Virus record (IMG/VR): IMGVR_UViG_3300033571_018110
Location: 1 to 46,167 of that record
Direction: 5' to 3' (one strand)
Source of the DNA: a virus
Length of the DNA stretch: 46,167 nucleotides
Under the pieces are notes generated by a model. That model worked only from the letters and a program-made list of their open reading frames with translations, was not told where the DNA came from and did not search any database. Position numbers and translations under genes: made by a program. Every line of letters starts with the position of its first letter. Positions within the stretch are counted from its first letter, which is position 1. Of this stretch, positions 5,973 to 22,414 are shown one piece after another.

Positions 5973-7840
5973 ATTATATACCGCTACATTGTCATAGTAT
6001 GTTTAGTTTGCTAGATGGACTATCTAAGCCCGAACAAATAGCAGAAAGATGTAAAGAAATTGGTGCTACGGCATGTGCATTAACTGATCACGGAAATATA
6101 GCCGGTGCTATTAAGTTTTATTTAGCCATGAAGAGTGCCAAGATTAAACCGATCTTGGGTTGTGAGTTGTACATATGTGCAAATGATCCTAAAATTCAAG
6201 AGAAAGAGAATAAAAATCTCTCTCATTTTATAGTCTTATCAAGAAACTATAATGGGTGGAAAGATCTTATTCGTGTTGTTTCTGAGTCTAATAAACCAGA
6301 ACATTATTATCATAAACCAAGACTTGATCTTAAAACTTTGTCTGAATTAGACAGTGGAGATCTCATAGTCATTACCGGACATTTAGGATCAACACTAGCA
6401 GATGAAATACTTGATGGTTACTCATTAAAAGAGAACTGGCAAGAACTAGGAGTTAAGCATGTGGAATATTTAAAAAATAATTTCACAAATGTTTTTCTTG
6501 AGGTCCAATTGATGGACAAGGAAAATCTTCCTGTACAAATAGAACTTACTCAAGCAATAAGAACAATTGGAAAGATCACTCATACAAAAGTTATTTGCAC
6601 ACCAGATGCCCACTATTGCAAAAAAGAAGATGCTGTGGACCAAAGAATTTTATTGTGCAATAATTTAAAGACAACCTTTCCAGAAATTAGTCGTAAACTT
6701 TCTAGTGGACAAGACGCTCCAATGGGTTGTTTTTTTACTTCTGATAATTATCATATTCTTTCTCAGGAAGAAACTAAAGAATTATATACAATAGAAGAAA
6801 TAGAGAATACACAATATGTTGCTTCCTTAGTAGAAGAATACGACATTTTAAGTAAGCCAAAACTGCCTCCGTTTGATTGTCCAAAAGGCTATGACGATGC
6901 AGAATATCTGAGAGAATTGTGTCGTAAGGGCTGGAAAGAAAAAATTGCTAATAATATACCAAAAGAAGAACAGCAAAAATATATAGATCGTATAAAATAT
7001 GAACTAGATGTTTTACAAGGTGCTGGGCTCAGTAGTTACTTTTTGATCGTTCAAGATATTGTTAATTATGTGCGTAAGCATAATTGGCTTCCTGGACCAG
7101 GAAGAGGAAGTGCTGCTGGTTGTCTAGTATCATATCTGATAGGAATTACTAGTATTGATCCAATTAGATATAACCTATTGTTTGATAGATTTTACAATGC
7201 TGGTCGTAATACCTCAGATAGAATTAGTATGCCAGATATTGATGTTGACGTTCCGATTAATAAAAGAGAAATTATTATTGCTTATATTAAAGAAAAATAT
7301 GGCGTAGATAAAGTTTCTCAAATGGTTACTTTTAATACCATTAAGGGTCGAGGAGCGTTAAAGGATGTTCTAAGAGTTTATGGCAATATTAGTTTTGAAG
7401 AAATGAATAAGATTACAAAAAATATACCTGATGAAGCTAAAATTGCTGATGAACTTCAAGAAATGAAAGAAGAAACTGGAGAAGCATCAATTATCAGATG
7501 GGCTCTAGAAAACAATGGAGACAAACTCAGAGAGTGGTGTTATTTAGACGATAATGGAGAACTACAAGGTCCGCTTGCAAAAAGATTTGAGCAGGCTATT
7601 AGACTAGAAGGAACCAAATCAAATCAGTCAAAACACGCCGCCGGAATAGCAATAAGTTCTGAACCATTACACGAATTATGTCCAATGGTATATGACAGCA
7701 AAAACGAACAACTCATCGCCGGTATGGAAATGCAAGATTTAGAAAATATTGGAATTATTAAATTTGATATTCTGGGCGTAGCAATGTTAGATAAAATTAT
7801 GACAATTCAAAATTTATTATCAGAAGGAGTAGAAACATGA
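5969..7840 (+). CDS. dnaE: DNA polymerase III alpha subunit, N-terminal half (PHP and palm)
   Basis: A protein of 623 residues, about the first half of DnaE. The PHP domain begins at residue 4 with PLHCHSMFSLLDG, then ALTDHGN, GCELYI, ITGHLGS and PDAHYC, so most metal ligands seem present. The palm has PGRGSAAGCLVSYLIG and PDIDVDVP. The catalytic aspartates correspond to D425 and D427, with the third at D600 in IIKFDILGV. The frame then stops at residue 623, before the fingers. The missing part is encoded by a separate gene at 8708. The two proteins must associate to polymerise. The start overlaps the upstream stop (ATGA), and the stop overlaps the next start. No intein-like residues are seen at the end. 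Confidence 0.9.
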   Translation: MNYIPLHCHSMFSLLDGLSKPEQIAERCKEIGATACALTDHGNIAGAIKFYLAMKSAKIKPILGCELYICANDPKIQEKENKNLSHFIVLSRNYNGWKDLIRVVSESNKPEHYYHKPRLDLKTLSELDSGDLIVITGHLGSTLADEILDGYSLKENWQELGVKHVEYLKNNFTNVFLEVQLMDKENLPVQIELTQAIRTIGKITHTKVICTPDAHYCKKEDAVDQRILLCNNLKTTFPEISRKLSSGQDAPMGCFFTSDNYHILSQEETKELYTIEEIENTQYVASLVEEYDILSKPKLPPFDCPKGYDDAEYLRELCRKGWKEKIANNIPKEEQQKYIDRIKYELDVLQGAGLSSYFLIVQDIVNYVRKHNWLPGPGRGSAAGCLVSYLIGITSIDPIRYNLLFDRFYNAGRNTSDRISMPDIDVDVPINKREIIIAYIKEKYGVDKVSQMVTFNTIKGRGALKDVLRVYGNISFEEMNKITKNIPDEAKIADELQEMKEETGEASIIRWALENNGDKLREWCYLDDNGELQGPLAKRFEQAIRLEGTKSNQSKHAAGIAISSEPLHELCPMVYDSKNEQLIAGMEMQDLENIGIIKFDILGVAMLDKIMTIQNLLSEGVET

Positions 7841-8019
7841 TCAAAAAGTTTAATGAACTAGAAAATGGTCAAAAGTTTACGTTCAATGGAATCGAGTATG
7901 AAAAGATGGCGGCTGTTAAGGTAAGTTGTTGTCGCAGTATTAATGCTAAGAATATATCAAATGAACAGCAGCAGACCTTTATTGCACCAAATCAGGAAGT
8001 AGAAACTATCGACCAATGA
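7837..8019 (+). CDS. small conserved-looking phage protein
   Basis: A protein of 60 residues with a strong AAGGAG ribosome site at 7824-7829 and ATGA overlaps on both sides, so it is probably real. The sequence has the pattern F-x2-L-x2-G-x2-FTFNG followed by VSCCRSINAK and FIAPNQEVE. I recall this layout from small phage proteins of unknown function. The fold may be a small beta barrel. It sits between the two polymerase halves, just before the exonuclease, and could be a polymerase accessory peptide, but nothing in the sequence proves this. Confidence 0.6.
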   Translation: MIKKFNELENGQKFTFNGIEYEKMAAVKVSCCRSINAKNISNEQQQTFIAPNQEVETIDQ

Positions 8020-8711
8020 TTAATTATAATAAAATTTGTGTTTTTGATTTTGAAACCGATGGCGTAGACCCTACCGTATGTAGTCCGGTTCAGATTGCTG
8101 CTGTAATGGTGGATCCTTTACAGTTAGAAATTATAGAAGGTTCGGAATTTAATACGTATTTTAAGCCGGAAACTTTAGAACAATCAGAATCATATAAGTA
8201 TGAAACTGATGTGTTAGATTTTCATGCTAAGGTCAAGGGGTGTCAGGCTGATGATATTTTAGCAGAATGGAAGAAGTATCCTAAGCAAGAACTATCCTGG
8301 AATTTATTTATTAACTATTTAGATAAATATCACACTAGAACTTCTAAAAAAAGTCAATTTAGTGCTCCTATAGCGGCTGGGTATAATATATATCGTTTTG
8401 ACTTACCTATTATTAATAGGCTCAGCAAAAAATATGGCAATACTAATAAAGAAGGAAATAGTGGTATTTTCTTTCCACGAGATGTGGTGGATACCATGAA
8501 TTTAATCTTTTATTGGTTTGAACATAATAATGATCTTAAGAGCTATACTTTAGATAGTTTAAGAGACTATTTTGGAATAGATAAGACAGGGGCTCACGAT
8601 GCTCTAAAAGACGTAAAAGATACGGCGGAAATATTAATAAGATTTATGAAGCTGCATCGAAATATCAGTAAAAAAATTAAGTTTAAAAATTCTTTTAATA
8701 ATACCATATGA
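8016..8711 (+). CDS. DnaQ-like DEDDh 3'-5' proofreading exonuclease
   Basis: A protein of 231 residues. All three exonuclease motifs are visible: Exo I FDFETDG (D11, E13), Exo II GYNIYRFDLPII (D129) and Exo III HDALKDVKDTAEIL (H194, D199), so it is a DEDDh enzyme and should be active. It presumably removes mismatched 3' ends made by the polymerase encoded on both sides of it. It overlaps the 60-residue gene upstream and the polymerase C-terminal half downstream. Co-translation of N-half, exonuclease and C-half is therefore likely. An oligoribonuclease-type role is a less likely alternative. Confidence 0.9.
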   Translation: MINYNKICVFDFETDGVDPTVCSPVQIAAVMVDPLQLEIIEGSEFNTYFKPETLEQSESYKYETDVLDFHAKVKGCQADDILAEWKKYPKQELSWNLFINYLDKYHTRTSKKSQFSAPIAAGYNIYRFDLPIINRLSKKYGNTNKEGNSGIFFPRDVVDTMNLIFYWFEHNNDLKSYTLDSLRDYFGIDKTGAHDALKDVKDTAEILIRFMKLHRNISKKIKFKNSFNNTI

Positions 8712-10324
8712 CAAAAAAGTTTGCTTATCCTTGCGGATGTTCATTTAATTTGGTTGAAGCCAATGGTCTACATAAAATAGAATTTGATCCTAACATTGAT
8801 CATATTAATTTAGAGTGTGATAGAACTTGGCAAATTATTTCTGATGGTAACACCAAGGGTTGTTTTCAATTAGAGAGCCGTCTAGGCAGAAGTATGGCTA
8901 AAAAGCTAAAGCCAGAAAATATAGAGCAACTATCTGCTCTGATTAGTATTATGAGGCCAGGATGCTTGGAAGCGGTAAGAGATGGAAAAACCGTTAGTAA
9001 TCATTATATAGATAAAAAGAATGGACTAGAATCTGTTGATTATTTTCATGAGTGTTTAGAGCCAATCTTAGGAAACACCTATGGAGAAATGGTTTATCAA
9101 GAACAGGCAATGGAAATTACAAAAGTTATTGCCGGATTTAATTTGCAAGAAGCAGACATGCTTAGAAAAGCTATTGGTAAGAAAAAACCAGAAGAAATGG
9201 CAAAGGTAAAAAAGAAATTTTTAGAAGGTGCCAAGCAGCTAAATATTGTTACAGAAGATGAAGCTGATCAGATATTCGGATGGATTGAAAAAAGCCAAAG
9301 ATATTCTTTCAATAAGTCTCATTCTGTAAGTTATGCTATTAATGCATATTTATCAGCGTTTACAAAAGCGCATTTCCCCAAAGTATTTTTTGCATCATAT
9401 TTAAGATTTGCTAAAGACAAAATAGATCCACAGGCAGAAATTAAAGAGTTGGTACAAAATGCTGCCGAAATGGATATATCTGTAAACACTCCTGATATTA
9501 GAAACTTAAATGAATTTTTTATACTTAAAAATAACAAGATTTATTTTGGACTAACAGACATAAAAGGAGTAGGAAGATCTGTATTTGAAAAAATAATGAG
9601 CCTTTGTCAAACTATCTCTTTGGAAAATATTACTTGGCCTCAAATGTTATTTTTGATACTCAATAATATTAACTCAACAGCCGCAAAAGCATTGATACAA
9701 AGTGGTGCTACCAATTTTTTTCAGAAAACCAGAAATAGTATGTTATATGAATATAATCTTATTAGTGGATTGACTAAAAAAGAAGCAGAACATATTACAA
9801 GCTATATTGGTTCTATTAAAGATATTAAGCAGGGTTTAGAATTACTATTAACAATGCCCAGGGTGAGCCAAAAAAGAAAACAGGTTATACAGGATCTTAT
9901 TAATTCTTATGTTAATCCTCCTCACTCGTTAGAGGATAGCCCAGAGTGGTTGGCCGATTCTGAAGACTCATTGCTAGGGTGCTCAATTACCTGCTCCAAA
10001 ATAGATATGTATGATATAAGTATGACAAATATCAACTGTAGAGAATTAAAGAATACTACTCAAAAAGATAATCTTATTCTTGCTGGAGAGATAGATTTTA
10101 TTAATGTTACTAAAACAAAGAGTGGAAAAAAGCCAGGAGCAGAAATGGCGTTTGTTACTTTGACAGATTCATTTGGTTCTGTAGACTCAATAGTATTCTT
10201 TCCAGAAAAATATACAGAATATAAAAATTTATTGTTTCCCAATAATATTATTATTGTTAAAGGAAACAAGTCTAAGAACGGAGATGGCCTGATTGTAGAA
10301 AAGGCTTATATCGCAAAGACTTGA
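8708..10324 (+). CDS. dnaE: DNA polymerase III alpha subunit, C-terminal half (fingers, HhH, OB)
   Basis: A protein of 538 residues that continues DnaE where the gene at 5969 stops. It opens with a short segment containing PCGCSF, then CDRTWQIISDGNTKGCFQLES, the DnaE fingers entry. ISIMRPG, YGEMVYQEQAMEI, FNLQEADMLRKAIGKK and YSFNKSHSVSYA follow, all typical DnaE motifs. A helix-hairpin-helix (FGLTDIKGVG, about residues 280-290) and a C-terminal OB fold (about 455-535) complete it. No catalytic aspartate of the palm is in this half. The tau-binding tail of bacterial DnaE is not evident. The site used by the cyanobacterial DnaE intein (FNKSHS) is intact here and is not the split point. The start overlaps the exonuclease stop (ATGA). 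Confidence 0.9.
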   Translation: MTKKFAYPCGCSFNLVEANGLHKIEFDPNIDHINLECDRTWQIISDGNTKGCFQLESRLGRSMAKKLKPENIEQLSALISIMRPGCLEAVRDGKTVSNHYIDKKNGLESVDYFHECLEPILGNTYGEMVYQEQAMEITKVIAGFNLQEADMLRKAIGKKKPEEMAKVKKKFLEGAKQLNIVTEDEADQIFGWIEKSQRYSFNKSHSVSYAINAYLSAFTKAHFPKVFFASYLRFAKDKIDPQAEIKELVQNAAEMDISVNTPDIRNLNEFFILKNNKIYFGLTDIKGVGRSVFEKIMSLCQTISLENITWPQMLFLILNNINSTAAKALIQSGATNFFQKTRNSMLYEYNLISGLTKKEAEHITSYIGSIKDIKQGLELLLTMPRVSQKRKQVIQDLINSYVNPPHSLEDSPEWLADSEDSLLGCSITCSKIDMYDISMTNINCRELKNTTQKDNLILAGEIDFINVTKTKSGKKPGAEMAFVTLTDSFGSVDSIVFFPEKYTEYKNLLFPNNIIIVKGNKSKNGDGLIVEKAYIAKT

Positions 10325-10348
10325 CATTCTATGGGTTGTCCATATAAT
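10321..10348 (+). promoter_or_regulatory. consensus sigma70-type promoter for ssb
   Basis: TTGACA at 10321-10326, a 16-base spacer, and TATAAT at 10343-10348: both hexamers are perfect matches. The -35 box overlaps the polymerase stop codon. Transcription would start near 10355, giving a leader of about 40 bases before the ssb ATG. Confidence 0.8.
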
Positions 10349-10393
10349 ACCTTGTGTTGGAATTTGGTTTTTTACTTTTATAAGGAGTTGCTG

Positions 10394-10762
10394 ATGAATA
10401 TTGTAATGTTAAGAGGTAATCTAGCTAGAGACCCAGAACTTCGTACAGTGGGTTCCGGAGATAAGCAGACAGCAGTAGTAAATTTTACAATTGCTACATC
10501 TCGTGAATTTACCAAGGCTAATGGTACACAAGATAAGATTACTTCGTTTATCCAGTGCGAAGCATGGGATAGTGGTGCCGAGGCTATTGCTTCTTCTTTT
10601 AAGAAGGGTGATCTAGTAATGGTTGAAGGATCGCTTCGTAATGATAGTTGGGAAAAGGATGGCGTAAAGCATTCGACTCTCAAGGTTCGCGTTAATAATT
10701 TTGGTAAGATTGTTAAGACCAAAAGAACAGAAAAGACCACTGAAGAAACCGTTGCCTTCTAA
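10394..10762 (+). CDS. ssb: single-stranded DNA-binding protein (SSB)
   Basis: A protein of 122 residues starting at 10394 after AAGGAG (10382-10387). The ATG at 10331 would add an unrelated leader and is rejected. The bacterial-type OB fold is clear: MNIVMLRGNLARDPELR, VVNFTIATSREF, FIQCEAWDSGAEAIASSFKKGDLVMVEGSL and DGVKHSTLKVRV. It coats ssDNA at the fork and during recombination. The C-terminal tail is only about a dozen residues and ends in EETVAF, so the acidic tip that recruits partners in bacterial SSB is reduced. It is unlike the rest of the operon in having its own consensus promoter and a strong terminator, which implies high independent expression. Confidence 0.93.
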   Translation: MNIVMLRGNLARDPELRTVGSGDKQTAVVNFTIATSREFTKANGTQDKITSFIQCEAWDSGAEAIASSFKKGDLVMVEGSLRNDSWEKDGVKHSTLKVRVNNFGKIVKTKRTEKTTEETVAF

Positions 10763-10836: not shown

Positions 10837-12483
10837 ATGACAAAAAAAAGACTATTTATTGCTAATGATGCCAGTTATTTGGATACTGGATATGGAGTAT
10901 ATGGTAAAGAATTATTGACAAGATTACATAATAGTGGAAAGTATGAAGTAGCCGAATTAGGGTGTTATGGAACAGTTGATAATCCTAGCAACAAAGAGAT
11001 TCCATGGAAGTTTTATCCTAATGCAGTAAATAATAATGACCAAAGGTCAAATGCTTATAAGTCTAATGTCTTAAATCAATTTGGCTTGTGGCGCTTTAAT
11101 AGGGCTATTCTTGATTTTAAGCCGCACATAGTTTTTGACATCAGAGATTATTGGATGTTTGCTTATCAAGAAATGAGCCCCTATAAAAAATATTTTAATT
11201 GGGTTGTAATGCCAGCCACAGACTCTGCTCCTCCAAAAACTGATTGGATGTATACTTATGCAAATGCAGATATAGTTATGCCATATACTAGATGGGCTTT
11301 AAATACTCTAAAGAATTATGGTGGTAAAAAATTAAATATTTTTCCAAAAATAGCAAATGCCGGAATTAATCCGACAGAATTCTATATATTAGAAAATAAA
11401 AAAGACTTCAAAAAACTGTATTTTGGTAGATCTGATGTATTGGTAACAGGCTTAGTTATGAGAAACCAAAAAAGAAAGCTTATATGCGATATGTTAATTG
11501 CATATAAAAAATATCTAACAGCTCTTAAAGAATCAAAGCTAGATGATATATATGATAGATCTATTTTATATTTTCATACTTCTTATCCAGAAGAAAACGG
11601 CTGGGATCTTCCTGCTCTATTAATAGAATTTGGACTATTAGATAAAACATATTTTTCTTATACTTGCAAATCTTGTAATGAATTTTTCCCAAGTAAATTT
11701 CAAGGTGGGGCTAAGATTTGTGAAAATTGTAAGCAACGATCATCATTTATTGTTAGTCCAACTAATGGTGTTAAAACATCAACCCTAAATATCATATATA
11801 ATTTATTTGATATATATATACAATATGCTATCTGTGAAGGCTTTGGTATGCCTCAAATTGAGGCCGCCGCTTGTGGTCTACAAATAGCCTCAGTTGACTA
11901 TAGTGCGATGACGGAAATATGTGAAAATGTACATGGCGTCAAAATACCTGTTAATAGAACATTCAGAGAATTGGAAACTAATGCTGATAGAGTATATCCA
12001 GATAATGATTTTACAGCCAGTATGCTATATCGATTTTTTGTTAACACGCCAGATGAGATTAAACATCATAATAGCTTAAAGATTAGAGAAGCCTGTATTA
12101 ATTATTATACTTGGGACAACGTATATAAGGTTTGGGATGAATGTTTTGATTGTATAGACATTAAAAGCAAAAAAGATTGGAATGATCCAAATATTGATCA
12201 AACATATCATACACAGGTCAAAGTGCCAGATAATCTAAATAACAACGACTTTATAGAATATATTTGTAGAAATATTATTAACGAACCTCAGCTTAGTCAA
12301 ACAGCTAATATACAAACCATAATCAGAGACTTAGATATGAACTTAGTATCTAGAAATGGATTATGTATGTTATTTAATAGAAATCATGCTATTGAGTCTT
12401 TAGATGGATTGCTATCTAACAAAGTTGCATGTGAAAAAATGAGACTAGAACCAAATTTTGTAACCAAAGAAGACTTCCTATGA
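10837..12483 (+). CDS. GT4-like glycosyltransferase with zinc-ribbon insertion
   Basis: A protein of 548 residues, GT-B fold. The N-terminal Rossmann domain begins RLFIANDASYLDTGYGVYG. The C-terminal domain has the family signature CEGFGMPQIEAAACG, with the E-x7-E pair E334 and E342 that binds the sugar-nucleotide donor. Between them is a zinc ribbon, CKSC and CENC (C277, C280, C295, C298), not part of the usual GT4 fold. The last 100 or so residues form an extra helical domain. It leads a run of overlapping genes that includes a nucleotidyltransferase-like protein. The acceptor is unknown: virion protein, host surface or modified DNA base are all possible. Confidence 0.82.
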   Translation: MTKKRLFIANDASYLDTGYGVYGKELLTRLHNSGKYEVAELGCYGTVDNPSNKEIPWKFYPNAVNNNDQRSNAYKSNVLNQFGLWRFNRAILDFKPHIVFDIRDYWMFAYQEMSPYKKYFNWVVMPATDSAPPKTDWMYTYANADIVMPYTRWALNTLKNYGGKKLNIFPKIANAGINPTEFYILENKKDFKKLYFGRSDVLVTGLVMRNQKRKLICDMLIAYKKYLTALKESKLDDIYDRSILYFHTSYPEENGWDLPALLIEFGLLDKTYFSYTCKSCNEFFPSKFQGGAKICENCKQRSSFIVSPTNGVKTSTLNIIYNLFDIYIQYAICEGFGMPQIEAAACGLQIASVDYSAMTEICENVHGVKIPVNRTFRELETNADRVYPDNDFTASMLYRFFVNTPDEIKHHNSLKIREACINYYTWDNVYKVWDECFDCIDIKSKKDWNDPNIDQTYHTQVKVPDNLNNNDFIEYICRNIINEPQLSQTANIQTIIRDLDMNLVSRNGLCMLFNRNHAIESLDGLLSNKVACEKMRLEPNFVTKEDFL

Positions 12484-13238
12484 ATCAGAGTATAAACCCG
12501 ATCCATACACCTTGCAAAAAGTGTGTATTCGCTAAATATGAGAATAAGACACAGATAGACTGTGAACTAAAGTATCTTGATATTTATCGTAATAAAAACA
12601 TAGAAATTTTAGAAGCTTATGATGAAGATCTAGAGTTTTATGTAATAAATCAAAAAAAATGTATTGGCTATAGAGAACCAAAGTGGTTTGATATGGTTGG
12701 TTTATCTAATTCTACTTTAGAAGAAAAAATTACTAAATATAAAGAATTAAATAAAATTCATTATGCTTTAACTATTGATACTCTTAATATGACGGTAGAT
12801 AATTTTGAAAATATTATAAAAAGTGTGTCAGGGTTAAGTATAAAGCCACAAAAATTAATTATTATTAGACACTTGGTAGATAACCACCAACTACCATACA
12901 ATATTATTGAATCAACTTTTAATAAGTATGATATAAAGAATATTTGGCGCATTAAAACGGTACTAGATACAGAATTATCCAGAGGAGACGTTCTTCATCA
13001 AGTAGTGGGTGAAAATAGCAGCTACAGGTTCATCGCATATACTAATGACTGTGATGCTGATCTTAATAAATTAATTGAAAAGGCTAATTCTGTTGTGTAT
13101 GAAAATTTTGACCAATTTAATATACTAACCTTAGAAACAGAAGCCAAGACCATTATCTTTAGTGTGGGTGTCTATAGATACACAAATGCTATGGGCGCAT
13201 CTATACTAGAGAATCAATCAAACTATACTGTAATATGA
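12480..13238 (+). CDS. Cys4-motif protein of unknown function in glycosylation block
   Basis: A protein of 252 residues with ATGA overlaps at both ends. The N-terminal region has four spaced cysteines (C12, C15, C28, C61), in TPCKKCVFA, TQIDCEL and KKCIGYRE, which suggests a bound zinc ion or iron-sulfur cluster. The rest alternates strands and helices, for example KIHYALTIDTLN and KPQKLIIIRHLV. It is loosely reminiscent of a GT-A-like domain, but no DxD motif is convincing. Tight coupling to the GT4 gene and to the nucleotidyltransferase-like gene suggests a role in the same modification pathway. The function is not recognised. Confidence 0.5.
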   Translation: MNQSINPIHTPCKKCVFAKYENKTQIDCELKYLDIYRNKNIEILEAYDEDLEFYVINQKKCIGYREPKWFDMVGLSNSTLEEKITKYKELNKIHYALTIDTLNMTVDNFENIIKSVSGLSIKPQKLIIIRHLVDNHQLPYNIIESTFNKYDIKNIWRIKTVLDTELSRGDVLHQVVGENSSYRFIAYTNDCDADLNKLIEKANSVVYENFDQFNILTLETEAKTIIFSVGVYRYTNAMGASILENQSNYTVI

Positions 13239-13849
13239 ATATTATTATTATAGCCGATAAATTCCAAAAAAGAATGAAATCCAAAGGTTGCGTCGGCTTA
13301 ATAAAAGATAAAAAAAATAAATTCCTATTTCAGAAACAATACGAGTCATTAAAGAAAATTTTTCCCGAATCAAATATTGTATATGTTTATGGTTTTGACG
13401 GAAAAAGAATGGATTCTTATGTAAACAAATATGAAAAGAATTTTTTAGACACTACCTTCATTCATAATGAGCACTATAATAACTATAATACTGCTTATAG
13501 TGTTTATTTATGCAAAGAGTTTTTGAATAACGATTGTTGCATATTATTTGGGGATAATCCTGTACACAAGACCACTTTTAAAAAGTTTGATCCTACAATA
13601 GGTTCCCAGATTTTTTTATCTAATAATGCCCAATCTTCGCTTGGTTCTATAATAAAAGACAATACTATACAGAATATAGCATATGATCTGGATAATAAAT
13701 TATCTGAAATATATTTTTTACAAAAAGATCAAGCATTGTCTCTTTATAATTGTATTGAAACCAAGCAATTTCATCAATATTTTTTATTCGAACTAATAAA
13801 TAAGCTCATAGACAACAAACATAAACTTTATTCTTACAAACATAAATAG
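13235..13849 (+). CDS. nucleotidyltransferase-like / GT-A-fold protein
   Basis: A protein of 204 residues. The N-terminus MNIIIIADKFQKRMKSKGC, followed by a QYESLKKIFPESNIVYVYGFDG segment and then CCILFGDNPV, resembles the Rossmann-like core of sugar-phosphate nucleotidylyltransferases: strand, basic loop, Q-x-L helix, and a GDN acidic motif that binds metal. It is shorter than typical enzymes (240-290 residues) and its catalytic lysine is unclear. It may supply an activated sugar to the neighbouring glycosyltransferases, or may have lost activity. Its start overlaps the upstream stop. Confidence 0.5.
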   Translation: MNIIIIADKFQKRMKSKGCVGLIKDKKNKFLFQKQYESLKKIFPESNIVYVYGFDGKRMDSYVNKYEKNFLDTTFIHNEHYNNYNTAYSVYLCKEFLNNDCCILFGDNPVHKTTFKKFDPTIGSQIFLSNNAQSSLGSIIKDNTIQNIAYDLDNKLSEIYFLQKDQALSLYNCIETKQFHQYFLFELINKLIDNKHKLYSYKHK

Positions 13850-13857
13850 GTTATTAT

Positions 13858-14223
13858 ATGGAATTAGCTATCTATACTTCTAATTTTGCTCAATTCGAAA
13901 ATCTTATTGATTCTGTTCGTACTTTTTTTCATAAAGAATATACAGATATTTTTATCTGCACGCCATTCTTCAATTCTCCTCGTAAAGAATATGCGTGTTT
14001 GCATCCTTTTTATTTGACATTTTTCAAAGGAACTTCTTTATTTTTAACTTTAGAAGATTATATAGAATATAAAGATAATATCATAGGAGAAAAAATTTTG
14101 TTTGTAGATAGTAATATACAAAATAATATTCCAATAGATAGATCAATTTTTAAAGAGTGTAAATTTTTAACATATGACGACAATAAGCAATTAATTATGG
14201 TGAACAATTATGCTATACGATAA
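13858..14223 (+). CDS. hypothetical protein in glycosylation block
   Basis: A protein of 121 residues, unrecognised. It has the look of the first half of a Rossmann or GT-A domain: MELAIYTSNFAQFENLIDSV, then DIFICTPFF, and later KILFVDSN. Part of it may be a cut-down glycosyltransferase. No signal peptide or membrane segment is seen. The stop lies inside the start of the downstream endonuclease gene. Confidence 0.45.
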   Translation: MELAIYTSNFAQFENLIDSVRTFFHKEYTDIFICTPFFNSPRKEYACLHPFYLTFFKGTSLFLTLEDYIEYKDNIIGEKILFVDSNIQNNIPIDRSIFKECKFLTYDDNKQLIMVNNYAIR

Positions 14224-15004
14224 AATGACAGATAAAGACAAAAAAACTTTAATCATTAATGAATATGAAAAAAATAAAAAGTCATTCAAGGATATAGCAG
14301 AAGAGCGTGGCACATATGCCAATAAAATTCGCCGAGACGCTATAAGATTTGCTATATCTATACGAACCAAAAGCGAAGCACAAAAAAATGTTTTATCTAC
14401 TGGTAAAGCAGAACATCCCACAAAAGGCAAGGAAAGAACACAGGAAGAAAAAAATAAAATAGGCCACGGAGTCATGAAATCTTGGGATGAACTTGACGAA
14501 GTTACTCTGCAACAACGAAAAGCAAAAGCCAGAGAAAATTGGGAAAAATTATCAGATGATGAAAAAGCAAACATACTCCATGAAGCTAATATGGCAGTAA
14601 GAGAGAGTAGCAAGCGTGGTTCTAAGTTAGAACTATACTTACTTAATCATTTGATCAAAGAGGGATACAAAGTAGATTTTCATAAAGAGCAAAGCCTACT
14701 AAATACCAAGTTGCAGATCGACCTGTTTCTTCCTAAACTAAATGTAGCAATAGAAGTTGATGGACTAAGCCACTTTGAACCAGTTTGGGGAGAAGATACT
14801 CTAAAAAAGAATCAGAAATATGATAATAAGAAAACAGGACTAATTTTAGGTAAAGGCTTGGTTCTTATTAGGATAATTCAAAAAAAGGACTTTTCTAATT
14901 CAAGAGCACAAGTTATATACTCTCAACTTATCGAACAGCTTAAACAAATAGAACAACAATTTCCAAATAAAGAAGATAGGAATATTACAATAGGAGACAG
15001 ATGA
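14210..15004 (+). CDS. NUMOD3/HTH Vsr-like endonuclease
   Basis: A protein of 264 residues. The N-terminal helix-turn-helix-like segment (SFKDIAEERGTYANKIRRD) is followed by a basic NUMOD3-like stretch (HPTKGKERTQEEKNKIG), a DNA-binding module typical of homing endonucleases. The C-terminal Vsr-like PD-(D/E)XK domain has LQIDLFLP (D171) and AIEVDGLSHFEP (E182, D184, H188), then a helix and the strand GLVLIRI. It is probably a free-standing homing-type or repair nuclease. It overlaps the preceding gene by 14 bases and splits a run of modification genes from a run of DNA-metabolism genes. A start at 14225 is possible. Confidence 0.7.
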   Translation: MLYDKMTDKDKKTLIINEYEKNKKSFKDIAEERGTYANKIRRDAIRFAISIRTKSEAQKNVLSTGKAEHPTKGKERTQEEKNKIGHGVMKSWDELDEVTLQQRKAKARENWEKLSDDEKANILHEANMAVRESSKRGSKLELYLLNHLIKEGYKVDFHKEQSLLNTKLQIDLFLPKLNVAIEVDGLSHFEPVWGEDTLKKNQKYDNKKTGLILGKGLVLIRIIQKKDFSNSRAQVIYSQLIEQLKQIEQQFPNKEDRNITIGDR

Positions 15005-15717
15005 TGGCTAAAAATAAAAAAGAGAACGATCAAGAAATAACAGAGAGCCCCAAGACTGTATCACCCAATGATCTGGAATGGACTGATCATGTGCTAAGTT
15101 TACTTAGTGATGATGAAAAAATAGCTGGTAATCCTACAACAGATGGACTAAGGCGTATTTTTGAAACTGCTCTAAATTGTACGGTTATTCGGGCAGAATC
15201 TTCTGTGGCTCAGTCTCCTTCTGTAGATAATGAGCGTAGGGCCACCGTAGTTCATTCTCTGACCTACATTTTAAACGATGGGTCTGTTGATGATGGAACT
15301 AAATTTCGCACCGTCAGTGGAGCGGCAGACGTTTACTGGGGAAACTGTGATAAGATTTATAGAAATCATCCTGTGGCCGTTGCTGAAACACGAGCAGAAG
15401 GAAGAGCTTTACGAAGAGCCCTTAAATTACGCAAAGTAGTAGCCGCTGAAGAATTAGCAAAAGAAATAGATACTGAACATTTAGAAGAAAATAATATTGG
15501 TAAAATTAATAGCACACAGATAAATTTCTTTGATGTTTTTGGTAAAAGGTTAGATATTAATATTCCTAAATTGTTAGAAAAACTTGCTATCGATAATAGA
15601 AATATCTATAATATTTCGTATGACGATGCTGTTAAAACTATAACAACATTATCTAGTTATCAACAAAGTAATGATATTCCTTCTGATATTAAGGGATATG
15701 ATTCAAACTGGAAATAA
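15004..15717 (+). CDS. putative ssDNA-annealing or recombination-associated protein
   Basis: A protein of 237 residues from ATG 15004. An adjacent ATG at 15001 is too close to GGAG (14993-14996). After a charged N-terminus comes a globular domain with DGLRRIFETALNCTV, ERRATVVHSLTYIL and a helix PVAVAETRAEGRALRRALKL. The AETRAEGRALRRAL helix resembles the core helix of phage Rad52/Erf-type annealing proteins, where a TRAxGRAL pattern is common. That match is short, so the assignment is tentative. The C-terminal 80 residues may be a separate domain. The gene overlaps the upstream nuclease and is followed by a zinc ribbon gene. Confidence 0.4.
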   Translation: MAKNKKENDQEITESPKTVSPNDLEWTDHVLSLLSDDEKIAGNPTTDGLRRIFETALNCTVIRAESSVAQSPSVDNERRATVVHSLTYILNDGSVDDGTKFRTVSGAADVYWGNCDKIYRNHPVAVAETRAEGRALRRALKLRKVVAAEELAKEIDTEHLEENNIGKINSTQINFFDVFGKRLDINIPKLLEKLAIDNRNIYNISYDDAVKTITTLSSYQQSNDIPSDIKGYDSNWK

Positions 15718-15727
15718 GGAGTAACAA

Positions 15728-16057
15728 ATGAAAGTAAAGTATAAGGTTGGCGAAAAATTAGAATTTGAATTAGAAGGCGCTGGTCAAAAAGAAATATTTA
15801 AAGAGCTAGCTCTTATACAAGAAATCTTTGGCGAAGAAAAGTGCGGACTGTGCGGTAGTGGTAACGTCAAGTTTGTTGTTAGAAATGTTGAAGGAAATGA
15901 TTACTATGAACTACGCTGTTCTGACTGTGGTGCCATATTAGCATTTGGTCAACATAAAAAGGGTGGTACTCTTTTTCCAAAACGCAAAGATGATGATGGC
16001 AACTATCTAGCAAATAAGGGTTGGCATAAATGGAGTAAAGACTCTAAGGATAAATAA
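15728..16057 (+). CDS. zinc ribbon protein of DNA-metabolism type
   Basis: A protein of 109 residues with a strong AAGGAG site at 15717-15722. A four-cysteine zinc ribbon, KCGLCGSGN to LRCSDCGA (about residues 39-64), is followed by the basic segment GQHKKGGTLFPKRKD. The acidic N-terminal helix contains QKEIFKELALIQEIFG. This composition suggests a small nucleic-acid or protein-binding adaptor. I recall similar small phage proteins of unknown function. The stop shares a base with the following start (TAATG). Confidence 0.6.
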   Translation: MKVKYKVGEKLEFELEGAGQKEIFKELALIQEIFGEEKCGLCGSGNVKFVVRNVEGNDYYELRCSDCGAILAFGQHKKGGTLFPKRKDDDGNYLANKGWHKWSKDSKDK

Positions 16058-16707
16058 TGTCCCCTCTTTATTTACATAATGGACAATTAATTGCTAAGGG
16101 TGGGGCACTAGGAATAGCACAAGCTTGTTGTTGTAGTGGTGAGTGTTGTTCCAATTACTCTAATTGTACTATTACTATTACTGAAAATTTCAGAAGCTCA
16201 CCACCTAATACTGCAATTTATCAGAGTGGTCAATTTATAAATGATACATTCTTAATTGGTTCATTTAGTATCGAAGGATGCGTATTTTCCTATAGTGCCG
16301 CAGATACTGGAAGTACAGGAGAAAATTGTTTTTTTACTTGGAATTATTCAATATCAAGATCAATCGATTGCGAATGTTGTGCCAACTCATGTTCTAAAAA
16401 TTGTTCTATGGGGGATATTATTTCTGAAGATTCTTATTATGATGAAACTGAAGGATGTGATCAAGAATTCGGTATAGACAGTATTGATGTGGACATTGAT
16501 TGTGAAGCATGTTGTTGTCCTGACTGTGTTGCTCCAGAGGGCGAGATAGCCGAGTGTTGCGACGGAACTTGTAAAAATACGCGCGACGACACAGGATTAT
16601 GTACTAGAGCCGATGGATCGACATTTGAAGCAACATATTCTGATTGTGGCAGAGATGATCAGTCTAATTCCTTTACTTTATGTATACCAGAGAATCCTTT
16701 ACCATAA
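16057..16707 (+). CDS. cysteine-rich protein, possible virion or secreted protein
   Basis: A protein of 216 residues, very rich in Cys. The pattern of clusters (ACCCSGECC, CECCANSC, EACCCPDC, ECCDGTC) recalls disulfide-rich or metal-binding knots. The N-terminal segment LYLHNGQLIAKGG looks like a short beta-hairpin. Only a weak hydrophobic stretch follows, with no clear signal peptide. It is not like the DNA-metabolism neighbours and may be a surface or virion decoration protein. The function is unknown. The cysteines would be reduced in the cytoplasm unless they bind metal. Confidence 0.5.
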   Translation: MSPLYLHNGQLIAKGGALGIAQACCCSGECCSNYSNCTITITENFRSSPPNTAIYQSGQFINDTFLIGSFSIEGCVFSYSAADTGSTGENCFFTWNYSISRSIDCECCANSCSKNCSMGDIISEDSYYDETEGCDQEFGIDSIDVDIDCEACCCPDCVAPEGEIAECCDGTCKNTRDDTGLCTRADGSTFEATYSDCGRDDQSNSFTLCIPENPLP

Positions 16708-16717
16708 AATTATTATT

Positions 16718-17134
16718 ATGAAAAATGTAATAAAATGTGATAAAAAATTTTTGGAACAAAGATGTGGAGAAAGAGGCTACCTCTTAGAAGAGGTTATGGA
16801 TTGTGTAATATCCACAGATGGTGATATTTGGTCTATTGATACGCAACACCCGGCATATCCATCCAAGTCAAAACCGGGCAATTGTTTAGTTGGCACAGAA
16901 TTAAAAAAATTATTAGCAAAAATTGGAATAAAAGCATCTCCATCATGTTCATGTAATAGTCGTGCTAAGACAATGGATAAAAATGGCGTAGTGTGGTGCG
17001 AAAATAATATTGATACTATTGTTGGCTGGCTTAAAGAAGAGGCTAATAAAAGAAAACTACCCTTTATAGATTATGCTGGTAAACTCTTAGTCAAAAGAGC
17101 AATATCTAATGCAAAGAGGCGAGCTAATGGATAG
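16718..17134 (+). CDS. protein with duplicated Cys/basic domain, copy 1
   Basis: A protein of 138 residues from ATG 16718. The longer frame from 16613 would run through the previous gene and is rejected. The first 50 residues hold CGERGYLLEEVMDCVIS with GDIWSIDTQHPAYPS. The second part, from about residue 57, is a domain with GTELKKLLAKIGI, SPSCSCNSRA, GVVWCENNIDTIV and KLLVKRAI. The same domain starts the next protein, so it arose by tandem duplication. Three cysteines in CSC...WC may bind metal. No function is known. Linkage to two glycosyltransferases suggests an adaptor role. Confidence 0.55.
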   Translation: MKNVIKCDKKFLEQRCGERGYLLEEVMDCVISTDGDIWSIDTQHPAYPSKSKPGNCLVGTELKKLLAKIGIKASPSCSCNSRAKTMDKNGVVWCENNIDTIVGWLKEEANKRKLPFIDYAGKLLVKRAISNAKRRANG

Positions 17135-18599
17135 GGGATTTCCTGGCCAAGAATTAAAGAAGCTTTTAAAAAAAATTGGTATCGTTGCCTCTCCTAACTG
17201 CCCATGTAACAAAAGAGCTAAGTTTATGGATATGCAGGGGGTTGAGTGGTGTGAAGAAAATATAGATACTATTGTTGAATGGCTTCAAGAAGAAGCAACA
17301 AAACGCAAGTTGCCATTTGCGCAAATGGCTGGTAAAATATTGGTGAAGAGAGCTATTTATAATGCGAAAAGGAATATTAAAAATATGAATAATAAAATTT
17401 TTGTACAAATTGCAAGCTATCGTGATCCTGAGCTAATACCAACTATAGAAGACGTAATCTCTAAAGCAAAAAATCCAGAAAATTTAACTTTTGGTATATG
17501 TTGGCAGCATGCAAAAGAAGATGAATGGGATAATCTAGATAAATTTAAAAACGACCCAAGATTTAAAATAATCGATATAGACTGGAAAGATAGTAAGGGG
17601 TTGTGCTGGGCACGTAGTGAGATACAGAAACTATGGAATAAAGAAGATTATACTTTGCAATTAGATAGTCATCACAGGTTTTTGCAGAACTGGGATGAAG
17701 AATTGATCAATATGCTTAAGATGGTAGATTCAGAGAAACCTATTATCACAACATATGCTGGAATGTATGAACCTAAAACAAATAAGCTATTAAATATTGA
17801 GCCATATAAAATGGTTGCTTCTAATTTTACACAATCTGGTACAATATTATTTAGGCCACATGCTATTGAAGAATGGCAAACTCTAACAAGGCCAATTCCG
17901 GCAAGATTTGTAAGTGGACATTTTTTCTTTACTATTGGTAAACATTGTGAAGAATATAAATATGATCCTAATATATATTTTGCTGGAGATGAAATAAGTT
18001 TAAGCATTAGGTCATATACTCTTGGTTATGATTTGTACCATCCTCATAAAACAGTAGTATGGCATGAATATACTAGAGAGGGTCGCACAAAACATTGGAC
18101 AGATTTTAACTCAGAAAATAAAAAAAAGGGATTGGTAGAAAAGCCTTGGCATGAAATGGACGCCTCTAGTAAATTTAGATTAAGACATATGCTAGGTGAA
18201 GAAGATAATAGTTTGGACCTGGGTATATATGGTTTAGGGCCTGTTCGTAGTCATTCAGACTATGAATTATATGCAGGCATTAATTTTAAAAATAGAAAAT
18301 TACATCCAGAAACATTATCGGGTAGAGATCCACCAATTAATGATAATAGTGAATGGTACAAAATACAAGAACAAACATATAATATATCGTTAAATATACC
18401 AGAGCCAACAACAGAATTTAAATTTATTTATATTGGAATAGAATCAGAAAATGGTAAAGTTATTTTTAGAGAAGATTTGAATAAGTATAAATCGTCAATA
18501 AATGCTAAGTTTAAATCTTTTGCCGATCCATATAAATGGGTATATTGGATTGTTCTACCTGATGGAACGTGGGGAGTAAGGCAGGATACTTTACTATGA
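17127..18599 (+). CDS. GlcNAc-transferase-like glycosyltransferase with N-terminal duplicated domain
   Basis: A protein of 490 residues. The ATG at 17127 is used because it follows an AGGCGAG site and overlaps the upstream stop. Residues 1-85 repeat the Cys/basic domain of the preceding gene (GQELKKLLKKIGI, SPNCPCNKRA, GVEWCEENIDTIV). From about residue 90 comes a GT-A enzyme resembling the GlcNAc family PF11397: IFVQIASYRDPELIPTIEDV, then YTLQLDSHHRF with the metal-binding D180-S-H182. A C-terminal domain follows. The enzyme would transfer a sugar, perhaps GlcNAc, to an unknown acceptor. The fused domain may target it. Confidence 0.8.
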   Translation: MDRGFPGQELKKLLKKIGIVASPNCPCNKRAKFMDMQGVEWCEENIDTIVEWLQEEATKRKLPFAQMAGKILVKRAIYNAKRNIKNMNNKIFVQIASYRDPELIPTIEDVISKAKNPENLTFGICWQHAKEDEWDNLDKFKNDPRFKIIDIDWKDSKGLCWARSEIQKLWNKEDYTLQLDSHHRFLQNWDEELINMLKMVDSEKPIITTYAGMYEPKTNKLLNIEPYKMVASNFTQSGTILFRPHAIEEWQTLTRPIPARFVSGHFFFTIGKHCEEYKYDPNIYFAGDEISLSIRSYTLGYDLYHPHKTVVWHEYTREGRTKHWTDFNSENKKKGLVEKPWHEMDASSKFRLRHMLGEEDNSLDLGIYGLGPVRSHSDYELYAGINFKNRKLHPETLSGRDPPINDNSEWYKIQEQTYNISLNIPEPTTEFKFIYIGIESENGKVIFREDLNKYKSSINAKFKSFADPYKWVYWIVLPDGTWGVRQDTLL

Positions 18600-19408
18600 T
18601 AAAAATAGGTGCTTTTTATCAATCAGGACATAAACTTGTAGCCTGTTATATGGCTCTTTATCAATTAAGAAAAATATATCCAAATATACCAGTAGCTTTA
18701 TATGAAGATGGTAGTGATATATTACAAAATGTTGCTAAAGAATTTAATTGTGAATATAAAAAAACAAATATTATAGGAGAAAACCATAAATATTCAGGCA
18801 GACCAGTCAAGGATTTAAATTCTAATCTTGCTTGGTTAAATAGAATTAAAGATTCTTGTGAAACAACTTTAAAAGATTGCGAGTGGATATTACACTATGA
18901 GGATGATGTCTGGTGTAAAAGACCTATTAAAAGATATCCAAATTTTGATTTAGCTGGAGCAAATGGTCCTTATTATACCACTGATCTTGCTGATTATTTA
19001 TTTAAAAGATTTGACACAACCAAAAAAGAAAGAGACCATTGGAGTACTTTGGGTACTCTGGAGAGTTATCAGGCTTGTGGTGGAACGATATTTAATAGAG
19101 AAAAATTTATTGATGCATATCATAAAATAAATGAGATAGACTGGAATATTATATGTAAATTAGATAGTAGAGTATGTGAATGGTCTGATGCTAGTCTGTC
19201 GTTTATAATGCAACACGCTGGGTATTCTTGTGGAAAATGGTCAGATTGGTCACAATACGACTCAAAAGGTACCGGAAAATGGTATGATAAAACAGGATGG
19301 TCCGTATCTATGGACGAACAAGAAGACACAGCATTTGTTCATTTGTATAAGCATTTTTACAACTATCAAGATGATGAGTTAGAATTAGCGAAATCTAAAA
19401 TAGTATAA
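18596..19408 (+). CDS. GT-A-fold glycosyltransferase
   Basis: A protein of 270 residues starting at the ATGA overlap at 18596; the upstream ATG at 18569 is rejected. The N-terminal IKIGAFYQSGHKLVACYMAL and IPVALYEDG form the nucleotide-binding face. ILHYEDDVWCKRP (E102-D103-D104) is the metal-binding acidic motif. ACGGTIFNREKF and CEWSDASLSFI recall the acceptor region of GT-A enzymes. Together with the upstream enzyme it forms a coupled two-enzyme modification unit. The last gene of the plus-strand block, it ends 81 bases before the converging tail gene. Confidence 0.72.
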   Translation: MIKIGAFYQSGHKLVACYMALYQLRKIYPNIPVALYEDGSDILQNVAKEFNCEYKKTNIIGENHKYSGRPVKDLNSNLAWLNRIKDSCETTLKDCEWILHYEDDVWCKRPIKRYPNFDLAGANGPYYTTDLADYLFKRFDTTKKERDHWSTLGTLESYQACGGTIFNREKFIDAYHKINEIDWNIICKLDSRVCEWSDASLSFIMQHAGYSCGKWSDWSQYDSKGTGKWYDKTGWSVSMDEQEDTAFVHLYKHFYNYQDDELELAKSKIV

Positions 19409-19489: not shown

Positions 19490-22414
19490 TTATTGTCTAT
19501 ACATTAGAACCGCAACTGCCCTAACAGTATCACAACTACTTGTATGCTTCATTGGGTTCTTTACATAGATACTATCTCCAATACTTATATCACAGTCTGT
19601 ACCAGTCAATCCCTCTATCGTTAAGTAACCATCTACGCTAGAAAGACTGGAATATAATCCATATATCATTGGTGTGGTTTGGCTCTCGTAGTCTTGTAAT
19701 ACTATATATTTATTGGTATGAGTATCATAATAGGCATATACTAATGTACCGGGTTTATGACATTTGCCTAGTCTATCTACAATATTAATAAATGCATCTG
19801 GTTGAGATCCTGGTGGCTGTGGCGGAGGGAATGTTGTTGTTGGCTCGGGTGTCGGTGTTGGCGTTGGCGTTGGTGTAGGAGTATTCGTTGGCGTTGGTGT
19901 AGGAGTATTCGTTGGCGTTGGTGTAGGAGTATTCGTTGGCGTTGGTGTAGGAGTATTCGTTGGCGTTGGCGTAGGAGTATTCGTTGGCGTTGGTGTAGGA
20001 GTATTCGTTGGCGTTGGGGTGGCTGTTGGAGTCGGCGGTGGCGTGTCAGTAGGTGTTGGCGTAGAGGTTGGGGTCGGCGATGGTTGACAATCAGTAACAG
20101 GTATGCTAATTGATCCACCACCACCAGCACTTAAAACTACTACTTCTTGAGTTGTAAATGTTAAACCTCCACCATCCAAAGATACGCCAGTGATCACAGT
20201 TACAGTTTGACCACATCCTAGATTACATGGAGTTTCTGTTGATGTAGGTGTCGGTGTTGGCGTTGGTGTAGGAGTATTCGTTGGCGTTGGTGTAGGAGTA
20301 TTAGTAGGTGTTGGCGTAGGTGTAGGTGTTGGTGTAGGAGTTGGCGTAGGAGTCTCCATCTCGCAAGTGCCATTACAATCCGGATTACTAAAAGGACCAG
20401 TACAATGAAAACTAGCTATTATACCAGGATCAATTTCTCCAGTATTAGCATCAATTAAAAATGGATCATCCGCCGGAATACAATGGCGACCTTCTTCAGG
20501 ATTAAAACTAATATCACAACAATAGTATTCATCACTACCAGCGCCAGAACATTGACTGAGACTAGTAACTATCCATTGACGTATTCTGGCGCTTTGTTCA
20601 ACGTCGCAACCCGCAGAACTACTATTCGAAATCTCATTACCTTCTTGATCAAATATTCTCTTGCCATAATTAATAATACTAGCTAAGCCTTCACCAAAAG
20701 CATTTACGCTTCTAACAATCTTAGCTACAACTATTTTATATGCTTGTGGACTTACCCATAAGCCACGCTCTCTATCAAATCTTAAATCAACAGGAGCAAC
20801 TGGCCATGTGGATGGTTTTTGTAACCAGTTATTTAAGAATTTGTCTTTAAGATTGTTTTGTGTAAATTGACCAGTTTTTGCAGATGATTCCGTATCGGAT
20901 AGATTGGGTACTGGTTTGCCGTCTAAGTCATAACCCCAACTATGAAGAACTAGTGGGCCTCTTAGTCCTAAAAATCTATAATCGCTAGAATATCTGCTAT
21001 CATCATCAGGTCGATAAAAATTGGTAATTAAACCGCCTTCTGGCACCTCAGTTTCTCTACCAACCATATCTATAACATGACCTTCACCACCCCCATCATG
21101 ATGATATTCGTTATTATCAAATTTATTAATGAGTGGATTAAAATGCTTTTGTGTTAACTCAAGATTATAGGTATCATTAGTGGCCGAATAACAATTACCA
21201 CTTGTTGATATAGGAGGATGAGGAGAAACCGGAGAAGAATTATGATCAATATCTTCTGGTTTAGGAACGGCAAATCTTGGTAAGCCTCCTCCACCATTAA
21301 TAGAAACAGGTCCGAATAAACCATCAAAACTCATATATGCTTTTTTATCATAAGCATATACCATTTCTGCTTGTGCTTTAGATAATGTTGCTGTTCCTAC
21401 CACTGTTCTTTGAGAGGGGTTATTATCAGTTCCTTGCCAATCGTATATTTCTCCAAGAACAACTCTTTGTAAAGAATTCTGATTAGCAGGAGCGTTGTTT
21501 TTTGATCTGTTGTCGCCAGTTCCACGAGTATTGGCAATAGTTCTAACTTTACGACCAATCTTATTTTGTATAATTTGATTGGTTCTTAACATTTTTAACT
21601 GTTCTTGTCTATTTTTAGCAATAACTTTAAACTTAGTTATAAAATGCTGATTAAGATCTCCAAAACGAGGAGTAAATGTTCTAAATTCATATGAGGATGT
21701 AATTCCGGATGATCCATAACTAAATGTTATCCCTGTTAGATTTGGTCCACCAGAATTAACAGTAGCTCCTAGCCCTACTAGATCTGGCAATCCCGGAATA
21801 GTCACACTACCAGTTTCTGCCCTATTCAATCCTATTGCAGAGGAGCTGACTATAGAGTTTGCGGCTTCGTTCATAGCAGCAATTGATCCAAAAACCCATG
21901 GAGCAATATCTGTGTCTACTGATACTTGAGTTCCTCCACCACTACTTCCAAAATTAGGAGAAGCATAAGGACCATATAATTTAACATTGCTTACCATAGG
22001 AATTACAGCAGCAGTGGGCATAATTGCCGCTGGTTGATATCCTAAGCTATTAGTTCCATGAGAATCACTAGAATTTTGTGCTGATAAAAATTTTTGAAGA
22101 TCTGCTTCGTCAACGCATGAATTTTTTGCTTTTTGAGTATATCCATTTTGGATATTAATATTAGTAACATTAGAAGAAGCGTTAAGAGCAGTGCCCGCAT
22201 TGAATAATAAGGCTTTAACGAGCCCCATTTCATCAGGACAAACAGCAGTTTCTGGAGCGCTACTAAACTTGACTACAACGCATGGAATGTTTCCATTAAC
22301 TATATAAATTTTCTCATCAACATCGCCCTTCATCCATAGCACATCGCCTATAGAGATAATCTCATCTTCTGGTAATTTGGTTATATCTATTTGTCCACAT
22401 TCTATTCCAGCCAT
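19490..22414 (-). CDS. tail-tip or fibre-like structural protein with Thr-Pro repeats
   Basis: A protein of 974 residues, preceded by AAGGA. The N-terminal 90 residues ([20 protein letters not shown] and a following beta region) may attach to the tail. A long mixed region follows, rich in Gly, Ser and Asn, with [20 protein letters not shown] near the middle. A Cys-rich patch precedes two blocks of [10 protein letters not shown]-type repeats flanking a short CNLGCGQTV domain. A 115-residue C-terminal domain ([20 protein letters not shown]) ends the protein. Thr-Pro repeats form extended stalks and are possible O-glycosylation sites. Last gene of the tail operon, it is a good receptor-binding candidate. 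No family match is claimed. Confidence 0.65.
19846..20357 (-). repeat. 24-base coding tandem repeats (Thr-Pro stalk)
   Basis: On the plus strand, GTAGGAGTATTCGTTGGCGT recurs every 24 bases about six times between 19874 and 20015, with degenerate copies at the edges and a second block at about 20244-20357. Encoded on the minus strand, each unit reads NTPTPTPT. Near-identical units imply recent slippage, so copy number may vary between relatives and change stalk length. Confidence 0.85.

Follow-up and report, generated by a model that had tools for sequence, protein, structure and literature searches.

Descriptions of mucin-type O-glycosylation come from animals and protists. Here we examine two adjacent glycosyltransferase genes, A and B, in a virus record of 46,167 bases (IMG/VR record IMGVR_UViG_3300033571_018110; its whole length is called the window), which lie next to a gene whose product, a stalk protein, carries a long block of Thr-Pro repeats. 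We consider it probable that A and B form a phage cassette for mucin-type O-glycosylation, directed at the Thr-Pro stalk of the phage itself. The genes themselves, the family and predicted fold of A, and its recurrent proximity to Thr-Pro repeats were observed directly. Gene A belongs to the Pfam family PF11397, which we take to be family GT60 of CAZy. GT60 enzymes are described as peptide alpha-GlcNAc-transferases (PMC8724618, PMC6939170); the one from Trypanosoma cruzi is reported to start mucin glycosylation on Thr, with KPPTTTTTTTTKPP as acceptor and a requirement for Mn2+ (PMC3769586), and one GT60 enzyme is reported to act on hydroxyproline (PMC6939170). A relationship of this family to animal GT27 has been described (PMC8724618). 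In GT27 a DxH motif binds manganese, and for one GT27 enzyme PGPTPGPR, with Pro at positions -1, +1 and +3 of the Thr, is named as the ideal peptide (PMC6994419).

Gene A (17385..18599, plus strand) encodes a catalytic and a C-terminal strand-rich domain. Its Pfam match to PF11397 is far above the gathering cut-off (E 4e-68; 230.7 bits against 21), and in PHROGs it matches phrog_24687 (E 7e-108). The AlphaFold2 model, built with 34 sequences, has a pLDDT (predicted local distance difference test) of 93, and the first 37 rows returned by Foldseek are polypeptide GalNAc-transferases at a modest TM value of about 0.5. A second comparison with VIA, which ran over Foldseek's top 1000 PDB chains, placed polypeptide GalNAc-transferases at all of ranks 1-29 (Z 19.3-23.0, 263-285 residues, root-mean-square deviation 3.3-3.7), rank 30 following at Z 17.1. 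In the predicted model the catalytic fold is therefore of GT-A type and most like that of the peptide GalNAc-transferases. GT27 enzymes are marked by a ricin-type lectin domain at the C-terminus; in A this end is the predicted strand-rich part (residues 330-403), which lies beyond the span of most listed VIA rows (1-327). By sequence, searches of the PDB with A (single sequence and profile) and with B gave no glycosyltransferase match. The motif DSH (codons 17664-17672) and His227 are invariant in the 34 A sequences, the equivalence of His227 to the later His ligand going by order only. Since DSH has the DxH form described for GT27, we count it toward a GT27-like reading. On the predicted model, the best reading of A is a peptide O-glycosyltransferase that would put the first sugar on Thr.

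The proposed acceptor is a Thr-Pro block of 187 residues, 68 Thr and 57 Pro among them (19796..20356, minus strand), arranged as two repeat runs flanking a small spacer. It lies near the C-terminus of the 974-aa stalk protein, whose open reading frame (ORF; 19490..22414, minus strand) is at the distal end of the presumed tail operon; A and B, on the opposite strand, point toward the block. The coding pattern of (Thr-Pro)3-Thr has 18 exact matches, all in 19851-20353 on the minus strand, and none in 100 shuffles; the Thr-Pro stalk announced by the original prediction, an earlier note made from the sequence alone, does exist. The block is a Thr/Ser- and Pro-rich tandem repeat domain, as expected of a mucin-type acceptor, and because its Thr-Pro runs supply the Pro spacing of the ideal GT27 peptide, we count them toward a Thr-Pro acceptor.

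Gene B (18596..19408, plus strand) was delimited by its junction with A and by the starts of its homologues: its ATG overlaps the TGA stop of A (ATGA), and the majority of the aligned homologues begin at, or adjacent to, Met 18596, the start given by the ORF tool being GTG 18569. The ORF 18569-19408 gave no informative match in Pfam, PHROGs or NCBIfam. Its predicted fold is GT-A-like (mean pLDDT 74, VIA Z up to 12.5), and an EDD motif is invariant in 18 sequences. We read B as a glycosyltransferase of GT-A fold that probably takes a second glycosylation step. It could not be placed in a single GT family, the VIA rows at Z 10-12.5 spanning many families. Gene A is directly upstream of B in 29 of 30 B loci; the exception, L097, is the most distant and sits on a 4.9-kb contig. 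At one locus, L068 (10010-11922), a UDP-galactopyranose mutase gene (PF03275, E 8e-73) comes next after B and overlaps it by 4 bases, which suggests a galactofuranose-containing glycan in the L068 phage only.

The proximity of A to Thr-Pro repeats was surveyed at 73 viral A loci fetched by A or B and not by repeats, one per record, with near-identical records retained. We set the border between close and distant A at 55% identity, no value falling between 47 and 57. A Thr-Pro ORF lies within 3 kb of A at 41 of the 48 close loci. Thirty-seven of the 48 share what we call backbone I, and in all 37 the gene right after A, or after the A-B pair, has Thr-Pro repeats. The positive close loci outside it are L003, L036, L037 and L038, of which L036 and L037 have common genes around A. 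That all A genes accompany Thr-Pro repeats was rejected by the distant loci (23/25 without one inside 3 kb), as was constant pairing of A with B, which is present at 29/48 close and 0/25 distant loci. Directly 3' of A in L038 (11254-12443), we also noted a Gly_transf_sug (DXD) glycosyltransferase and a sulfotransferase-family gene.

The association was also approached from the side of the repeats. PF11397 was found in 14 of 79 records selected by a (Thr-Pro)7 DNA pattern (6/40 and 8/39), three of the 14 being backbone I, against 0/50 (Glu-Pro) records and 1/50 records selected by an arbitrary 14-mer. Against the pooled controls this enrichment has a Fisher P of 5e-5, and per Mb the values are 4.0 and 0.27 (P 3e-4). 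The 79 records come from 80 loci of at least 120 stretches, the omitted one being a second locus of the same record; the (Glu-Pro) control is the first 50 of 80 loci, and the arbitrary-pattern control 50 of 80 with longer records preferred. One of these 50 arbitrary-pattern records contains the (Thr-Pro)3-Thr pattern. With a cut-off of 2.6 kb, chosen after the distances were known, A is near the repeat in 9/14 records, where random placement would give 2.0 (P 6e-6), and in 6/11 when backbone I is left out (1.6 expected, P 0.001). At 1.5 kb the counts are 5/14 (1.3 expected, P 0.005) and 4/11 without backbone I (P 0.012); at 3 kb they are again 9/14 and 6/11. In the remaining 5/14 records, A and the repeat are 7 to 73 kb apart.

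A further pairing is seen in a sister phage (the 59.9-kb record of L003), which is otherwise colinear with the window and has no A at the window position. There, the homologue of the window protein encoded at 43656-44681 does not stop where that protein ends but goes on with a Thr-Pro block plus one more domain (908 aa). A is located 36 bases downstream of it on the same strand, within the presumed tail operon; B was not found in this record. Block and A adjoin in both phages, at different places and in different mutual orientation, so that a single move of one intact segment is no simple explanation. The stalk-protein homologues of the sister phage and of a further related record, L339, are without a (Thr-Pro)3-Thr run; because the alignment of the stalk C-terminus is poor past the conserved part, we limit the claim to the others lacking the block and leave the point of gain or loss aside. 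In a tree of 67 A sequences, window A and sister A are mutual closest relatives (100/92). Ten changes of the label "Thr-Pro repeat near" are required on this tree, at least seven of them forced by starred branches, against a mean of 22 when labels are shuffled. The label is clustered on the tree but has changed several times; its counts are biased by the mixture of A/B-fetched loci and repeat-fetched records, and the tree has several long branches of uncertain standing. Identical rows and, among the A/B-search loci, A fragments below 280 residues were omitted, the 130-residue piece G073 being kept.

Among 50,697 phage records, A has matches in three, XacN1, CM1 and RAS14. ORF334 of Xanthomonas phage XacN1 is a relative of A with 40% identity over 76% of the query, and in ORF325 (3313 aa, beside a gene annotated as baseplate wedge) short Thr-Pro runs occur some 150 to 220 residues ahead of the C-terminus; B was not found in the XacN1 record. 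At least two glycoproteins have been reported for this phage (PMC5852040). In RAS14, the protein WAX21643 has short Thr-Pro runs near its end. Bacterial genomes gave 134 confirmed loci with A relatives, of which 80 were kept, the best being at 55% in Verrucomicrobium. Thr-Pro repeats lie within 6 kb of A in 8/80 of these loci, a count without a control set. In four of the bacterial-genome loci (L487, L491, L492 and L498) Thr-Pro ORFs are about 500 bases or less from A, and some of these contigs could be phage.

In the mechanism that we propose, A would be made in the cytoplasm of the infected cell and would use a UDP-sugar, with GlcNAc or GalNAc as the likeliest sugar, to glycosylate Thr residues of the stalk's Thr-Pro block. 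Gene B, probably translationally coupled to A, would lengthen or vary the glycan. On the mature particle the block would stand as a rigid rod clad in sugar, probably located at the tail. Catalysis, acceptor, sugar, linkage, the role of B, expression and location on the particle are all parts that we infer. We are evenly divided on a wider proposal, according to which phages would possess a mucin system of their own. Its portable unit would consist of a GT27/GT60-like peptide glycosyltransferase, an optional second transferase and a Thr-Pro acceptor block carried by different virion proteins in different lineages, and it would yield sugar-coated stalks in the cytoplasm of the bacterium, with no secretory pathway.

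Several observations weigh against a cassette dedicated to the Thr-Pro stalk. Independent events are few, given that 37 of the 41 positive close loci lie on one shared backbone and near-identical records were retained. Seven of the 48 close loci (L029, L031, L068, L078, L080, L083 and L085) have no (Thr-Pro)3-Thr on their whole records, those of L029 and L031 being short; a Thr-Pro ORF lies within 3 kb at only 2 of the 25 distant loci; the L339 record combines a distant A with the lack of any (Thr-Pro)3-Thr repeat; and 65 of the 79 (Thr-Pro)7 records, many of them fragments, are without PF11397. To these must be added the late choice of the 2.6-kb cut-off, the shortness of the XacN1 and RAS14 runs and their distance of about 9 kb from A, and the accessible part of the XacN1 paper, whose text does not say which proteins carry sugar (PMC5852040). 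From the counter-cases it follows that Thr-Pro blocks need not be what every A acts on, and that such blocks can occur without A. The 7 close and 23 of 25 distant loci lacking a Thr-Pro ORF within 3 kb would suit a different account, in which A and B glycosylate another substrate (a different Ser/Thr-rich virion protein, a glycan on the host surface or a host protein) and the block happens to adjoin them in a hot spot of variable tail genes; some distant A genes also stand, as judged by eye, among sugar-enzyme-like genes, and A has many bacterial relatives, 8 of the 80 kept having Thr-Pro repeats within 6 kb. We hold this to be rather unlikely, because PF11397 is enriched in Thr-Pro records relative to both controls, the sister phage again pairs block and A in another place and mutual orientation, and the predicted fold of A favours peptide acceptors. 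Glycosylation of hydroxyproline after a prolyl hydroxylase, as by the Skp1 enzyme, would agree with the substrate of one GT60 enzyme (PMC6939170) and with a Pro-rich block. It seems very improbable to us, since the 2OG-Fe(II) oxygenase family PF13640 was found in 0/39 records (the window and 38 of the close clade, fragments), with a search that was positive in 2/14 control genomes, even if a host hydroxylase could serve.

Modification of DNA was also weighed, separately for A and B and for the sugar genes farther upstream. Phage glycosyltransferases are reported to glycosylate DNA (PMC12619734), yet such a role for A and B is barely conceivable: the nearest folds of the A model are peptide glycosyltransferases, the A of the sister phage is inside the presumed tail operon, and a thymidylate-synthase-type hydroxymethylase was found in 0/4 records, namely the window and three relatives, all fragments. 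For the upstream group, which begins with a GT4-type gene and is called island 1 here, with A and B as island 2, a DNA role independent of island 2 is a tentative possibility. Its place, which follows the replication genes both in the window and in three related records (the sister phage, L338 and L339), with a deoxynucleoside monophosphate (dNMP) kinase upstream, speaks for it; the missing hydroxymethylase and the lack of any other recognised base-modifying gene among the window ORFs scanned (not all of them) speak against it. The original prediction had seen no hydroxymethylase or other base-modifying gene; since the negative records are fragments, we keep a DNA role for island 1 as the less likely option. 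The preference of that prediction for glycosylated virion proteins, with the Thr-Pro stalk as an obvious acceptor, fared differently in the two islands. For island 1, we find no tie between the GT4 and its followers and the stalk. For island 2, the predicted fold, the controlled repeat proximity and the sister phage support it, short of proof; the guess was right in direction, and we sharpen it to mucin-type O-glycosylation of Thr-Pro repeats.

The three glycosyltransferase genes that had been announced are indeed present (GT4, 10837-12483; GlcNAc-type, 17109-18599; GT-A-like, 18569-19408), but not as the single sugar block 10837-19408: an endonuclease-like ORF and other genes, without a sugar-gene match, split it into two islands. 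The GT4-type gene (10837..12483, plus strand) matches PHROG 2170 (E 5e-22) and Pfam Glycos_transf_1 (E 7e-6), the latter slightly below the curated cut-off (26.0 against 26.4 bits). It is followed on the plus strand by a protein without family in Pfam, PHROGs and NCBIfam (12480..13238; sister homologue at 38% identity), a weakly GlmU-like protein (13235..13849; 44%) and a second protein without family in the same databases (13858..14223; 37%). The nucleotidyltransferase-like protein of the original prediction is the one at 13235-13849; NCBIfam links it to sugar-1-phosphate nucleotidyltransferases by two matches far under the cut-offs (E 8e-4 and 2.5e-3), and a sugar nucleotidyltransferase is a plausible, unproven reading. 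Between the islands lie an HNH/homing-endonuclease-like ORF (14210-15004; PHROGs, best E 4e-13), with 62-67% identity in 3/3 related records, and the stretch 15001-17134, which gave no sugar-gene match in Pfam and PHROGs (16613-17134 by NCBIfam only). Comparison of the records shows that the two islands behave differently among relatives. Island 1 sits with the replication genes, a position retained in all three related records: the GT4 is at an unchanged place in the sister phage (62% identity), and L338 and L339, which give nearly equal values and may represent one kind of phage, have in place the GT4 (40%), the endonuclease-like gene and the next two genes. Neither the L338 nor the L339 record contains a (Thr-Pro)3-Thr repeat, and we therefore do not group island 1 with island 2. 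The window GT4 has a CxxC...CxxC insert that the L338 homologue is without, and L338 carries a second GT4-type gene (9590-10690; PF00534, E 5e-8) behind that of island 1, where the window has none.

The plus strand of the window, up to 19408, holds replication genes and then the sugar genes. The former comprise a RecA C-terminus, DnaB, a Toprim protein, the dNMP kinase, a PD-(D/E)XK nuclease, a split DnaE and an exonuclease-like gene. DnaE is in two pieces, a PHP and NTPase part (5969-7840) and a fingers part (8708-10324), with the exonuclease-like gene (8016-8711) between them, and this order is identical in the sister phage and in L338/L339. The ORF of A itself starts at 17109, and its in-frame N-terminal extension (17109..17384, plus strand) translates into a Cys-rich "CxC...WC" domain of about 75 residues. 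In the 34-sequence alignment the homologous ORFs begin at, or within about 20 residues of, Met 93, and the true start may be Met 17385 instead of 17109. The Cys-rich domain occurs at the end of the preceding ORF and at the start of A's ORF (16613-17384). The contig of the sister phage has two such stretches (15521-15751 and 17315-17539), and L048 has a single one at a distance of about 7 kb from its A. From 19490 onward, the minus strand has 13 ORFs taken as virion genes. They are presumed to be tail genes from their order and length only, including a tape-measure-like ORF of 4171 aa; PHROGs gave no match for ten of the 13 (all but the last ORF and those of 974 and 4171 aa), and Pfam gave weak matches only for ten minus-strand ORFs.

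If the cassette acts as proposed, the low-complexity Thr-Pro repeats of presumed virion genes would have a reason, and phages would have a means to stiffen, hydrate or hide part of the tail. It would also offer a compact cytoplasmic enzyme-acceptor pair for glycoengineering, and the reading is testable in phages already in culture, XacN1 and RAS14. Among the literature matches listed there is no report of phage mucin-type glycosylation, which is not proof of absence. The nearest cultured case, XacN1, resembles the window in its ORF334, the Thr-Pro runs of its ORF325 and its glycoproteins; it differs in the gap of about 9 kb between A relative and repeat and in the missing B, and its authors, in the accessible part of the paper, draw no link from ORF334 to mucin-type enzymes or Thr-Pro repeats (PMC5852040). 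Glycosylated mycobacteriophage virions (Freeman et al. 2023, via PMC12619734 and PMC12894461) likewise have glycans on particle proteins, said to influence immune recognition, but these are said to occupy the C-terminal ends of capsid and tail tube subunits. The GT27 polypeptide GalNAc-transferases have the solved folds closest to the A model, the DSH of A is a putative metal motif of their DxH form, and their reported preference for Pro next to Thr (PMC4245494) resembles the Thr-Pro repeats; A stands apart by about 15% identity, by the lack of a PDB sequence match and by an aligned part that stops at residue 308-328. The GT60 enzymes of T. cruzi, Dictyostelium and Toxoplasma (Gnt1) are, with GT60 taken to be PF11397 (the GlcNAc family of Pfam), of the same family as A; they are described as peptide alpha-GlcNAc-transferases, and their acceptors include a Thr-rich mucin sequence with flanking Pro. 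Unlike them, A is a predicted phage enzyme that would work in the cytoplasm, has a strand-rich C-terminal domain in the AlphaFold2 model, and is often found beside a Thr-Pro repeat gene.

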